Source: an uncultured Pelagibacteraceae bacterium
GTDB lineage: Bacteria > Pseudomonadota > Alphaproteobacteria > Pelagibacterales > Pelagibacteraceae
DNA: 64,000 nt
Direction of reading: 5' to 3'
Assembly (NCBI GenBank): GCA_902574695.1
Contig: CACGON010000001.1
Location: 124,001 to 188,000 of the forward strand
Shown piece after piece: positions 43,570 through 51,918 of the stretch (its first letter is position 1; every line of letters begins with the position of its first letter). Under the pieces are notes generated by a model. The model had not been told where the DNA came from and made no database searches. It saw nothing but the letters and a program-made list of their open reading frames with translations. Made by a program: the position numbers and the translations under genes.

Positions 43570-43590
43570 TTTTTCAATAAATATATAATT

Positions 43591-43630
43591 TGTATAGGTG
43601 TAACTAGTCATCTGGCTAGTACCCTATACA
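43591..43630 (+). other. strong stem-loop in cspA-like/hisS intergenic region
   Basis: TGTATAGG..ACTAG loop CTAGT..CCTATACA, about 15 bp with small bulges. Confidence 0.6.
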
Positions 43631-43674
43631 ATTAACTCTTGTATAAAAAAATTTTGATGTTAAATAACCTATTA

Positions 43675-43734
43675 ATGATTAAAAAAATATATATCTCTAA
43701 AGACACTCACAGACATCACACACATGGCTGCTAA
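43675..43734 (+). CDS. putative histidine leader peptide MIKKIYISKDTHRHHTHGC
   Basis: ATG..TAA 19 codons with 4 His within 6 codons (HRHHTH), just upstream of tRNA-His-hisS-hisZ-hisG; stop codon lies in hairpin TGGCT-GCTA-AGCCA. Confidence 0.65.
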   Translation: MIKKIYISKDTHRHHTHGC

Positions 43735-43796
43735 GCCAGCTATTAATCATTTTAAAATTTAAATTTATTAACAATTAGTATAAAAAGAAAGAGAAC

Positions 43797-43870
43797 GCCT
43801 TGGTGGTGAAATAGTATCACGTCGGTTTGTGGATCCGAAGTCGTAGGAGCGTAACCTACCCAAGGTACCA
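43797..43870 (+). tRNA. tRNA-His (GTG) with non-canonical elbow, ends 4 nt before hisS ATG
   Basis: GCCTTGG TG GTGA AATAGTA TCAC G TCGGT TTGTGGA TCCGA AGTC GTAGG AGCGTAA CCTAC CCAAGGT A CCA. Confidence 0.85.
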
Positions 43871-43874
43871 AAAC

Positions 43875-45269
43875 ATGAATAAAGAAAACAAACTCAATCC
43901 ATCCTTACCATCTGGATTTGAAGATCGTTGGGGTAAAAAGCTGGTTCTTAAAAAACAGCTTATAAGAATAATTGAAAAAAATTTTATAAAGTTTGGAGCC
44001 GAACCATTAGAGACTCCATCCTTCGAGTATACAGAGAACATTGGATCATTTTTAGCCAATGACGAAGATAACCCTATGTCTGATATTTTTACTTACGACG
44101 ATCGAACTAAAAGTATTAGTTTAAAGTATGATCTATCAAGTCCCTTGGCTAGATTTTATGCACAATTTAATCAGGAACTTCCGTCTATTTATAAAAGATA
44201 TGCAATTCAAAATGTCTTTAGAAATGAAAAACCTTCTAACGGCCGCTACAGAGAGTTTTTGCAAGGAGATTTTGACATTATAGGAAATGTTAATTTTGCA
44301 CAGGCAAATGCTGAACTATGTAACTTAATATCTACCACTCTCAAAGATATCGGTCTTAATAAAGATCAGTTTACAATTAATGTAAGTAATAGAAAAATAG
44401 TTCAAGGGTTAATTGATGATTTAAAGATATCAAAAGACAAACAATTAAAAGTAATTAGAGCAATCGATAAATTAGATAAGCCTGGATTTGGTTTAAAAGG
44501 AGTTGAGGATCTTCTTAAAAAAGAAAGAAAAGATCAAAGCGGTGCTATAACTAAAGGAGCTGATTTAAGCGATGATCAAGCAGAAAAAATATTAAATTTT
44601 TTAAAAATAAAAGATTTACAAGAATTAAGAGAAAACTTAAAAAATCCATTATCACAAGAGGGAATAAAAGAATTAGAGGATGTATTTGAGGTAATAAGTT
44701 ACGGATCTAATTCAAATCAAGTAAAAATAAATTTTACAATTGTACGTGGCCTTGCATACTATTCAGATTTTATTTTAGAAACAAATCTTAATTTTAAAGT
44801 TACAAACAGTAAAGGTAAACGTGTCGACCTAGGCAGTATTTGCTCAGGGGGAGGATATGCAAAATTAATATCAAGATTTAAAGGGGTAGATGTACCTGGA
44901 ACAGGTATTAGTTTTGGTATTGATAGATTATTATTTGCTTTAATTCAATTAGATCAAATTAAAATAGGGGATCAAAAACCTGTTTTAGTCTGTGTAATGG
45001 AGCAAAAATATCTGAAGAATTATTATGAAATAGTCGATTTATTGAGAGATAATAATATAAATGCCGAAGTATTTCTTAGTACAAAAAAAAATCTTAGCAA
45101 GCAACTTGATCTAGCAAATAAGCGCGAATTAGCGGTTGCAATCATTTGTGGAGAAAATGAGTTTAAAAATAACACAATTACGATCAAAAACCTTAGAGGA
45201 GAAAAAGGTAAAAATAATCAAACAATTCCAAAAGCTGATTTAATTAATGAAATCAAAAAATTTGTTTAA
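43875..45269 (+). CDS. hisS: histidyl-tRNA synthetase; start moved from 43827 to the ATG after tRNA-His
   Basis: YDLSSPLARFYAQF, QGDFDIIG, VRGLAYYSDFILE, PGTGISFGIDRL. Confidence 0.95.
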   Translation: MNKENKLNPSLPSGFEDRWGKKLVLKKQLIRIIEKNFIKFGAEPLETPSFEYTENIGSFLANDEDNPMSDIFTYDDRTKSISLKYDLSSPLARFYAQFNQELPSIYKRYAIQNVFRNEKPSNGRYREFLQGDFDIIGNVNFAQANAELCNLISTTLKDIGLNKDQFTINVSNRKIVQGLIDDLKISKDKQLKVIRAIDKLDKPGFGLKGVEDLLKKERKDQSGAITKGADLSDDQAEKILNFLKIKDLQELRENLKNPLSQEGIKELEDVFEVISYGSNSNQVKINFTIVRGLAYYSDFILETNLNFKVTNSKGKRVDLGSICSGGGYAKLISRFKGVDVPGTGISFGIDRLLFALIQLDQIKIGDQKPVLVCVMEQKYLKNYYEIVDLLRDNNINAEVFLSTKKNLSKQLDLANKRELAVAIICGENEFKNNTITIKNLRGEKGKNNQTIPKADLINEIKKFV

Positions 45270-46290
45270 AATTCTTAAATCAAAAGGTTTTAAGAATATA
45301 AAACTTGATAATATTATTGAGTCTAAATATGTTTTAAAAAGATCAGGAGGTAGTTACAGACAATTCCTTTTTTCTTTTTACGATCAAAATCAAAAAGAAT
45401 GGTCTTTGGTTCCTGATTTATCTGTTAGTAGTGTTGTCAAATTCATCCAGAATAAAATAAATACCAAAACCAAATGGTTTTATACTGGTGAGGCATACCG
45501 TAAACAAAATAAAAATTATAATGCACCAATAATTAACCAAACCGGTTTTGAGATATTTGCCTCAAATGATAAAATTAAAGATGATAAAGAAATTATTCAA
45601 ACATCTATTGAGATTTTAAAAAAATCAAAGTTTAAAAAGGGTGAATTAAATATAAGCAATATTGAAATATTTAACGCATTAATAGATAGATTATCTCTAG
45701 CTTTACGTTGGAAAGATAGAGTCAAACGACACTTTTGTCGAGAAGCTTACTTTAATCAATTATTAAGGAAGCTTTCAAGCGATACAGATATAAATTTTGC
45801 TGAGGTAGAAAAAGATAAAAAAATTGCTGAAAAATTTAGAAAACAAAAACCAAGCACTTTATATTCTGGTAGAACACTTAAAGATATTTTGGAACGTTTT
45901 GATTTAAAAAACTTCAAAGAACCTAGATCAATAGCAGACAAAAAAAGTGTAAAAATTATTAAAAATTATTTAAAAATTTCATGTGCAATAGATAAAGCAC
46001 CTAACACACTTAATAAATTTTTCAAAAAAAATAAATTAAATTTGTTTATAAGTGATGATTATTTTCCAGTTGTTAAAACCATCAATAGAAAAATTAAAAT
46101 AAATTTTTCTTCAAATATAAACCGTTCACTTGAGTATTATTCTGGCATGGTTTTTAACATAACAGTCAATAAAAAAGGAAAAAAATTCTCACTCATTTCA
46201 GGTGGGCGTTATGATGGATTGTTAAAAAATCTTGGTAGTAAAAAGAATACAACCGCAGTTGGTGCAGCTATTGATATGAGTTTGTTATGA
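45247..46290 (+). CDS. hisZ: ATP phosphoribosyltransferase regulatory subunit HisZ
   Basis: HisRS-like class II fold without anticodon-binding domain (SLEYYSGMVFNI, SGGRYDGLLKNLG), directly before short-form hisG. Confidence 0.87.
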   Translation: MKSKNLFKILKSKGFKNIKLDNIIESKYVLKRSGGSYRQFLFSFYDQNQKEWSLVPDLSVSSVVKFIQNKINTKTKWFYTGEAYRKQNKNYNAPIINQTGFEIFASNDKIKDDKEIIQTSIEILKKSKFKKGELNISNIEIFNALIDRLSLALRWKDRVKRHFCREAYFNQLLRKLSSDTDINFAEVEKDKKIAEKFRKQKPSTLYSGRTLKDILERFDLKNFKEPRSIADKKSVKIIKNYLKISCAIDKAPNTLNKFFKKNKLNLFISDDYFPVVKTINRKIKINFSSNINRSLEYYSGMVFNITVNKKGKKFSLISGGRYDGLLKNLGSKKNTTAVGAAIDMSLL

Positions 46291-46967
46291 AAAATGATAT
46301 AATTAATATCGCTACTTTGTCTAAAGGACGACTAAAAGATCAAGCAGAAAAAGTTTTTAAAAAAAATGGTCTGAAAATTATTTCTAAATCAGAAAGATCA
46401 TTAATTGGTTCAATCAAAGGTTTCCCCACTGTGCGAGTGATGTACATGAATGCAACTGAAATTATAGAGGCTCTGGGAAAGGGTATTTGTGCAATAGGTA
46501 TTAGTGGAAAAGATTTATGGCGTGAAAGTGAACCGAGTATTCAATCTAAAGTATCATTAGTAAAAGAATTTGAATGGGGAAAATCAAATCTCGTGGTTGC
46601 AGTTCCAACTGCTTGGATTGATTGTGTAAACTCTGCAGATTTAGAGGAAATATCTTTTGAATTTTATAAAAAAAAGAAAAGACTTATGAGAGTTGCAACA
46701 AAATTTAAAAACTTAAGTAGAGAATGGTTTAACTATAAAGGCATCACACAATATGAACTTATCTCATCACTTGGTGCTACTGAAAATTCACATATTATTG
46801 GAAAATCTGATCTCATTGTTGATCTTAGTTCAACAGGCGAAACTTTACGTCAAAATAATTTAAAAATTGTTGAAGTAATTTTAAATTCTTCAGCATGTCT
46901 TTTTACATCTAAAAAATTTCAAAACGTTAAAGATGTGAAAAAAATCATAAAAAAGCTATCGAGATAA
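46287..46967 (+). CDS. hisG: ATP phosphoribosyltransferase, short form
   Basis: IATLSKGRLKDQAEKVF, SDLIVDLSSTGETLRQNNL. Confidence 0.95.
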   Translation: MKNDIINIATLSKGRLKDQAEKVFKKNGLKIISKSERSLIGSIKGFPTVRVMYMNATEIIEALGKGICAIGISGKDLWRESEPSIQSKVSLVKEFEWGKSNLVVAVPTAWIDCVNSADLEEISFEFYKKKKRLMRVATKFKNLSREWFNYKGITQYELISSLGATENSHIIGKSDLIVDLSSTGETLRQNNLKIVEVILNSSACLFTSKKFQNVKDVKKIIKKLSR

Positions 46968-50656: not shown

Positions 50657-51918
50657 TTTAAATTTAGTATTTCCCCCATTAAATAAAGTGAACCTGTAAC
50701 TAAACAGATAGCATCCTCTCTATTAGATAAGTTATTTAAAACATCTCTTACATCATTAGATAGTAATATTTTATCTCCTAAATTACCCAATTTTTTTTTA
50801 AATTCCTCTTTTGAAATTGAACCTTCTTGATTAGGGATATCTATTAATGTTATAGACTTCGCATTAATACTTAAATTATTAATAAATTCTTTATGTGGCT
50901 TATCTCGCATCATACCCACCACAACATGCACATCTTGATTTTGTTGATTAATCCAAGAAGCTAGTGATTTACTTGCACCTATATTATGTCCACCGTCACA
51001 AAATATTTTGTTTTTACCTATTATTTTTTTTAATTTACCTGTTTTAAGTTCTTCAAGACGACCTTTTAGTCTAATATTTTGAATACCAAGCTTAATGTAT
51101 TGATCTTTAATTTGAAAAATTTTTCTTGTTGCGGCTATTGAGGTGCTAATATTTCCCAGTTGATGTTCTCCAAGAATATTAGGCTCAGGGAGTAAAATTT
51201 CTCCTAAATCATCCTGATAATGAATAAAATTATTTTCATTTCTTGATATGTGAAAATCTTCACTAAAAAAATATTTTTTAGAAGAATTTGTTTTTAAAGA
51301 CTTTTTAATCTTGTTAGTGATTTCAGGTGTTTCTTGCTTATTTATGAAGATATTTGAATTTAACAACTTCGTTGTTTTTTCATGAATAATTCCATCAATA
51401 GTTTTGTTTTTAATCCATTGGGTATGGTCTAGTCCGATATAGCCAATCATAGAAAAAAGATTTTCTCTAAAAACATTTGTACTATCAAATTGGTGAAACA
51501 AACCTGCCTCAATAATATTTATATTTTCTTTATAATTTTCAGCATATTTTAAAAAACCACATGTTAGTATTTCAAAAACACTAGCATTTTCTTCTCCAAG
51601 AAATTTTTCAATATCATTTAATAAGTTAACTAAATCATCCTCGGGAATTTCATGATCATTAAAAATAAATCTCTCTGAAAGAGACTGTAAATGAGGCGAT
51701 GTATACATGTTACATTTGTAATTAGCTTCGTTTAAAATTGATTTAAGACTGTAGCACATACTTGCTTTAGCATTTGTACCCACAACAGTAATTACATTTT
51801 TAATTTTGTTCTGAGGATTTCCTAATTTCTTTAATAGGTTAAAAGTTCGATCTAATGATAAATCGATTTTTTTATTATGATGCTTCTCTAATTTCTTTAG
51901 TAGTTGACGTAGTTTCAT
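50653..51918 (-). CDS. folC: folylpolyglutamate/dihydrofolate synthase
   Basis: VVGTNAKASMCYSLKSIL, YTSPHLQSLSERF, FCDGGHNIGA. Confidence 0.94.
   Translation of the reverse strand: MKLRQLLKKLEKHHNKKIDLSLDRTFNLLKKLGNPQNKIKNVITVVGTNAKASMCYSLKSILNEANYKCNMYTSPHLQSLSERFIFNDHEIPEDDLVNLLNDIEKFLGEENASVFEILTCGFLKYAENYKENINIIEAGLFHQFDSTNVFRENLFSMIGYIGLDHTQWIKNKTIDGIIHEKTTKLLNSNIFINKQETPEITNKIKKSLKTNSSKKYFFSEDFHISRNENNFIHYQDDLGEILLPEPNILGEHQLGNISTSIAATRKIFQIKDQYIKLGIQNIRLKGRLEELKTGKLKKIIGKNKIFCDGGHNIGASKSLASWINQQNQDVHVVVGMMRDKPHKEFINNLSINAKSITLIDIPNQEGSISKEEFKKKLGNLGDKILLSNDVRDVLNNLSNREDAICLVTGSLYLMGEILNLN

Follow-up and report, generated by a model that had tools for sequence, protein, structure and literature searches.

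A short histidine-codon ORF precedes the histidyl-tRNA synthetase gene hisS throughout the SAR11 order, and on comparative grounds it is a real, order-wide histidine leader. The likely explanation is that it encodes a leaderless histidine leader peptide, by which translating ribosomes control read-through into tRNA-His-hisS-hisZ-hisG in a His-dependent manner. The leader would very probably let SAR11, the most abundant ocean bacterium, adjust tRNA-His and its histidine-handling genes to histidine supply. If true, tRNA-His charging would be sensed by a conserved element ahead of the tRNA gene itself, its synthetase and the first biosynthetic enzyme, making up a compact feedback loop that needs no regulator.

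The features of the locus within the 64,000-nt stretch of DNA that was analyzed (the window) are collected in Table 1. The original prediction had described a 19-codon ORF with four His in six codons ending 62 nt before tRNA-His, a hairpin TGGCT-GCTA-AGCCA at 43725-43738, and two complementary arms on either side of it. All are present in the window sequence, exactly as described to the base. The His residues of the window leader occupy codons 12, 14, 15 and 17. A second ATG at 43657 is in frame with the ORF; since it sits just before the -10 region, the ATG at 43675 is the likely start.

Table 1. Positions of the leader, its predicted RNA structure, putative promoters and downstream genes in the window.
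Feature	Position	Strand	Details and basis
Promoter P1	43639-43666	+	-35-like TTGTAT (43639-43644), 16-nt spacer, -10-like TAAATA (43661-43666); sequence, conserved spacing
Outer helix, 5' arm	43674-43682	+	AATGATTAA; folds, covariation
Leader ORF	43675-43734	+	MIKKIYISKDTHRHHTHGC, 19 codons, start ATG at 43675, stop TAA at 43732-43734; sequence and His-ORF equivalents in 164/164 SAR11 loci; probably leaderless
Inner hairpin	43724-43743	+	At the last His codon, TGGCT/AGCCA core with the stop codon in the loop; folds and cross-group comparison
Outer helix, 3' arm	43743-43751	+	TTAATCATT; folds, covariation
Promoter-like -10 box P2	43779-43784	+	TATAAA, 18 nt before tRNA-His
tRNA-His	43797-43870	+	Anticodon GTG; Rfam match 43797-43867; CCA end 4-5 nt before hisS
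hisS, histidyl-tRNA synthetase	43875-45269	+	hisS family model matches the genome
hisZ, ATP phosphoribosyltransferase regulatory subunit	45247-46290	+	Named by homology and position; 160/160 loci
hisG, ATP phosphoribosyltransferase catalytic subunit	46287-46967	+	Named by homology and position; 143/160 loci

The ends of the hisS, hisZ and hisG ORFs overlap in the window. ORFs of 10-40 aa with four His in six codons number two in the window compared to a mean of 0.03 in Markov simulations. The other one, MWLISHHTHHNMHILILLINPRS at position 50893 on the + strand, lies antisense inside a folC-like 421-aa ORF and was judged to have arisen by chance. For the leader itself, a chance His run was ruled out by the simulations together with codon-level conservation. 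The fold of the leader alone is ordinary for its composition (z = -1.0); as a result, conservation was taken as the test of the leader.

With HisS as the query, 80 SAR11 loci were obtained from named genomes and were joined by loci from further genomes of the order. A short ORF with two to six His codons was found before (tRNA-His-)hisS in 164/164 SAR11-order loci that had enough upstream DNA. These loci correspond to 133 different peptides of 11 to 34 aa from ten genera and two families, and since the two collections may share genomes, 133 is a safer count than 164. Where several ATGs share the frame, the leader start was chosen by rule or by hand, and it is uncertain in two loci (L129 and L130). 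The commonest leader type, MIINITYRETSRSTHRICFHSL, has only two His codons, five codons apart; other types are represented by MIKKVIINRETHRHHFHAGCKLAI, MIIKAIKTRSNISTQRSTLRGTNRGVHSHFHAG, MIKKYISTHRHHPHAEHALSY and MFIKINIVKSHSHSHRVHARLLLS. The second family of the order has the leader MFKFKHHHYHI, with no tRNA between leader and hisS. The original prediction had proposed conservation across SAR11 as its own check, and both the His codons and the frame are kept in close and distant relatives.

The gene context is equally stable. Downstream of hisS, hisZ is present on the same strand in 160/160 loci and hisG in 143/160, being absent from only one locus with enough flanking sequence. In 134/157 loci, a cspA-like gene is found no more than 700 nt upstream of hisS. 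The leader is thus located upstream of histidine synthesis and charging genes, as expected of ribosome-mediated amino-acid leader peptides. The possibility of a general alphaproteobacterial trait was also considered and rejected, as no convincing His leader precedes hisS in 60 loci from other alphaproteobacterial families. A search of SAR11 for Ile/Leu/Val or Trp leaders identified none before ilvB (15 loci) or trpE (14 loci).

Selection on the His codons was analyzed in the commonest leader type (91 loci, 70 unique), with changes mapped on the hisS tree. Frame 0 is open in 70/70 unique sequences, while both other frames are closed by stops in 70/70. All of this type have CAT at codon 20, and 89 of the 91 loci have CAT or CAC at codon 15. 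At least 12 changes were placed at codon 15, of which 10 are silent CAT/CAC exchanges and 2 lead away from His. Each of codons 5-12 underwent 14 to 26 changes, 76-96% of which altered the amino acid. One locus (L012) has lost His at codon 15 (CAA) and gained a CAT at codon 18, three codons on. The invariance of codon 20, which adjoins the hairpin, may be partly structural. Judged by these comparisons, the pattern is the signature of a regulatory-codon leader in which the codons count more than the peptide, and it speaks against both a functional microprotein and an RNA that is not translated.

Around the last His, conservation at the amino-acid level is partial (FH[SA], with F/L at codon 19). 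This C-terminal motif, and the fact that His-rich peptides can bind metals, would suit a functional His-rich microprotein (metal-binding, for example) for which the position before hisS is incidental. Such a protein is very improbable, however. The non-His residues mostly drift, with nearly every codon change altering the amino acid; the length ranges from 11 to 34 aa and the His content from two to six; and the leader ORF always precedes hisS-hisZ.

The RNA is predicted to form an inner hairpin and an outer helix. In every tRNA-bearing group measured, the hairpin starts 1-3 nt past the first base of the last conserved His codon, placing it where a stalled ribosome would alter the structure. 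The stems are group-specific (AUAGCC/GGCUAU, GCUGGC/GCUAGC, AUAGCUG/CAGCUAU, GCUAAGC/GCUUAGC). The original prediction had a stop codon within the hairpin. While the hairpin is conserved in most SAR11 groups, the position of the stop codon is not essential; some groups place it within the loop, others stop only downstream of the hairpin, as groups C and E mostly do, and two sequences read through the hairpin stop codon. In genera g6 and g12, an extra hairpin is made from the His codons themselves (L149, L150, L151-L157, L160, L162, L169). Its versions CACTCT-CAC-AGAGTG, CATTCT-CAC-AGAATG and CACACT-CAC-AGTGTG apparently covary.

The outer helix pairs codons 1-4 with the bases just 3' of the hairpin. 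Since a single alignment of all groups is structurally unreliable at the 5' arm, a swap test and an alignment of group A were used instead. The arms pair with their own partner at -5.83 kcal/mol and, when swapped between groups, at -4.34 kcal/mol (sd 0.25), with 0/2000 swaps reaching the value of the true partner. Among the 58 sequences of group A, 97% of cells are paired and one pair changes from UA to AU in 8/58, which is compensatory. Groups A, B, C and E have a clear outer helix, as do genera g12 and g7/g11 and the single g8 sequence; the helix is unsupported in group D and genera g6 and g10. The folds inspected contained the hairpin and the outer helix, with no conserved alternative (antiterminator) pairing seen in them.

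A conserved and partly covarying hairpin and outer helix would also be expected of an untranslated structured RNA, such as a riboswitch, a protein-binding site or an sRNA, with the ORF as a by-product. Several short riboswitch-type RNAs are used by SAR11 (PMC2704228). Against this stand the silent CAT/CAC exchange at codon 15, which is outside the named helices, a frame 0 that is always open when the other frames are always closed, and the His run that the second family retains despite a different downstream structure. There is also no Rfam family that matches the leader, the T-box model being among those without a match, and the Rfam His_leader model gave no match at gathering, nor at E-values up to 5 in the leader region of the window. 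A known RNA family was rejected on this basis as the identity of the leader, and a structured RNA with an incidental ORF is considered highly unlikely.

Upstream of the leader, the position of promoter P1 is conserved. The distance from the first T of a TTG-type -35 box to the A of the ATG is 35 nt in 101/137 unique sequences and 34-36 nt in 129/137; in the window it is 36 nt. Given this spacing and the usual promoter geometry, the RNA is predicted to start at or next to the AUG. The leader ORF is therefore probably leaderless, with a transcript starting on or next to its AUG, which would explain its missing Shine-Dalgarno sequence.

A TATAAA/GATAAA/TATAAT box also occurs 16-24 nt before tRNA-His in 81/81 unique upstream sequences, and the box of the window, P2, is probably a separate tRNA-His promoter. 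It could carry most tRNA-His-hisS transcription, leaving the leader a small contribution. The original prediction had named a transcription start downstream of 43734 as evidence against the leader; a P2-like box does lie there, but it adds to the conserved upstream P1 and does not replace it. If the operon were transcribed essentially from P2, the leader RNA might be a separate short transcript acting in trans, in the manner of the leaderless trpL RNA and peptide (rnTrpL/peTrpL) of the alphaproteobacterium Sinorhizobium meliloti (PMC7298713). This arrangement is improbable given that the leader always stays adjacent to hisS, the peptide body is not conserved, and a lone -10 hexamer is common in AT-rich DNA.

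From comparison of the ORF, the selection on its His codons, the structure, the gene context and the promoter position, we infer translation and stalling, the sign of the response and the output step, as follows. Transcription from P1 would start on or next to the AUG, and the 19 codons would be translated by ribosomes that bind in the absence of a Shine-Dalgarno sequence. Under an ample supply of charged tRNA-His, the ribosome would pass the His codons and depart, allowing the hairpin and the outer helix with the RNA 5' end to fold, hiding the start codon and lowering read-through. This reduction may come from termination, either weak and intrinsic or assisted by Rho, or from degradation of the leader transcript. 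Under a shortage of charged tRNA-His, the ribosome would stall on the last His codons and cover the 5' arm of the hairpin. With the hairpin blocked, transcription would continue into tRNA-His-hisS-hisZ-hisG, through which the supply of charged tRNA-His is replenished. P2 would maintain basal tRNA-His and HisRS. A direct translational coupling of the leader to hisS is unlikely because tRNA-His intervenes. The original prediction spoke of a leader controlling these four genes; that interpretation is supported, although control itself, as something deduced by comparison, was overstated.

The uninterrupted U-run that follows the GC-rich hairpin of a classical transcription attenuator does not occur at the leader, where the longest U run after the hairpin is mostly 3. 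The original prediction was correct that there is no clear U-tract, though U is enriched in an interrupted manner, with 3.8-5.9 in the 8 nt after the hairpin by group compared to a background of 2.2. None of the 18 gene ends of the window has a strong hairpin followed by a U-tract, so the missing U-tract at the leader says little. Rho is encoded. In the second family (L106-L110, L163-L168), the leader stop is followed by a hairpin of ~9 bp and a conserved ACCCC(C) stretch. This C-rich unpaired stretch is possibly a candidate Rho site.

The same translated His leader might instead act after transcription, with stalling or release of the ribosome exposing or hiding the 5' end and so determining how stable the leader-tRNA-hisS transcript is or how it is processed, with no termination involved. 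The RNA 5' end is itself one arm of the outer helix, a clear terminator is absent, and the tRNA must be cut from a transcript in which hisS follows so closely after the CCA, all of which would fit such an output. On the other hand, a moderately U-rich tail after the hairpin and an encoded Rho make termination possible. An exclusively post-transcriptional output is regarded as rather unlikely, with the qualification that it shares its sensor with control of read-through and differs only in the output step, such that the weights given to the two overlap.

The gammaproteobacterial his operon leader, or hisL attenuator (Rfam His_leader), resembles the SAR11 leader in having a short His-codon ORF before histidine genes with hairpins after it. 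The SAR11 leader differs in its placement before tRNA-His-hisS-hisZ-hisG, its mostly two to four His codons and its probable leaderless start, and it combines one hairpin with a 5'-end helix in place of a U-run terminator. His leader peptides were also predicted before hisS* and hisZ in bacilli (Naville & Gautheret 2010, PMC2965389), where a His codon run likewise precedes a hisS-family gene. Those leaders belong to Firmicutes, were found via U-tract terminators and have no tRNA in the unit, and their authors see no similarity to proteobacterial leaders (PMC2965389). Given these bacilli precedents, the statement in the original prediction that a His leader before tRNA-His and hisS would be unusual was too strong. 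In S. meliloti, likewise an alphaproteobacterium, transcription of the trpL leader ORF begins at its ATG; trpL differs in its Trp codons, in preceding the biosynthetic gene trpE(G), and in its established transcription attenuation and trans-acting roles (PMC7298713).

Short upstream ORFs in a regulatory context do occur in SAR11, with eleven uORFs predicted in strain HIMB5 (Stav et al. 2019, PMC6429828). That screen covered 'unknown' intergenic regions and sought an RBS, and no His or hisS example is named in its main text, although the HIMB5 copy of the leader may be among the eleven. A study of structured RNAs in P. ubique excluded intergenic regions containing tRNAs (PMC2704228). Searches of an open-access library found no description of a SAR11 His leader.

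Relative to known His leaders, the SAR11 leader stands apart by a probably leaderless ORF, closure by the RNA 5' end, inclusion of a tRNA and the lack of a clear terminator. Attenuation built on a leaderless ORF that the 5' end of the same RNA closes would be very compact. A more specific proposal is that a ribosome held up at the last His codon itself masks the hairpin, with no antiterminator or U-tract involved, that the RNA 5' end closes the structure, and that across the order the charging state of a tRNA jointly governs the tRNA gene, the cognate synthetase and the first biosynthetic enzyme. This combination is put forward tentatively and falls somewhat short of probable. We know of no precedent for the attenuation of a tRNA gene together with its synthetase.

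The slot before hisS is occupied by several very different tRNA-His sequence types across SAR11. The CCA of the tRNA is only 4-5 nt from the hisS ATG in 141/152 SAR11 loci (43871-43874 in the window), so that excision of the tRNA would leave hisS with almost no leader. The tRNA-His of the window was overlooked by ARAGORN and detected by Rfam. Just 3' of the cspA-like gene, a strong hairpin without a U-tract is present at 43590-43631 of the window (GTATAGG...CCCTATAC), and its CCTATAC half reappears in several related loci.
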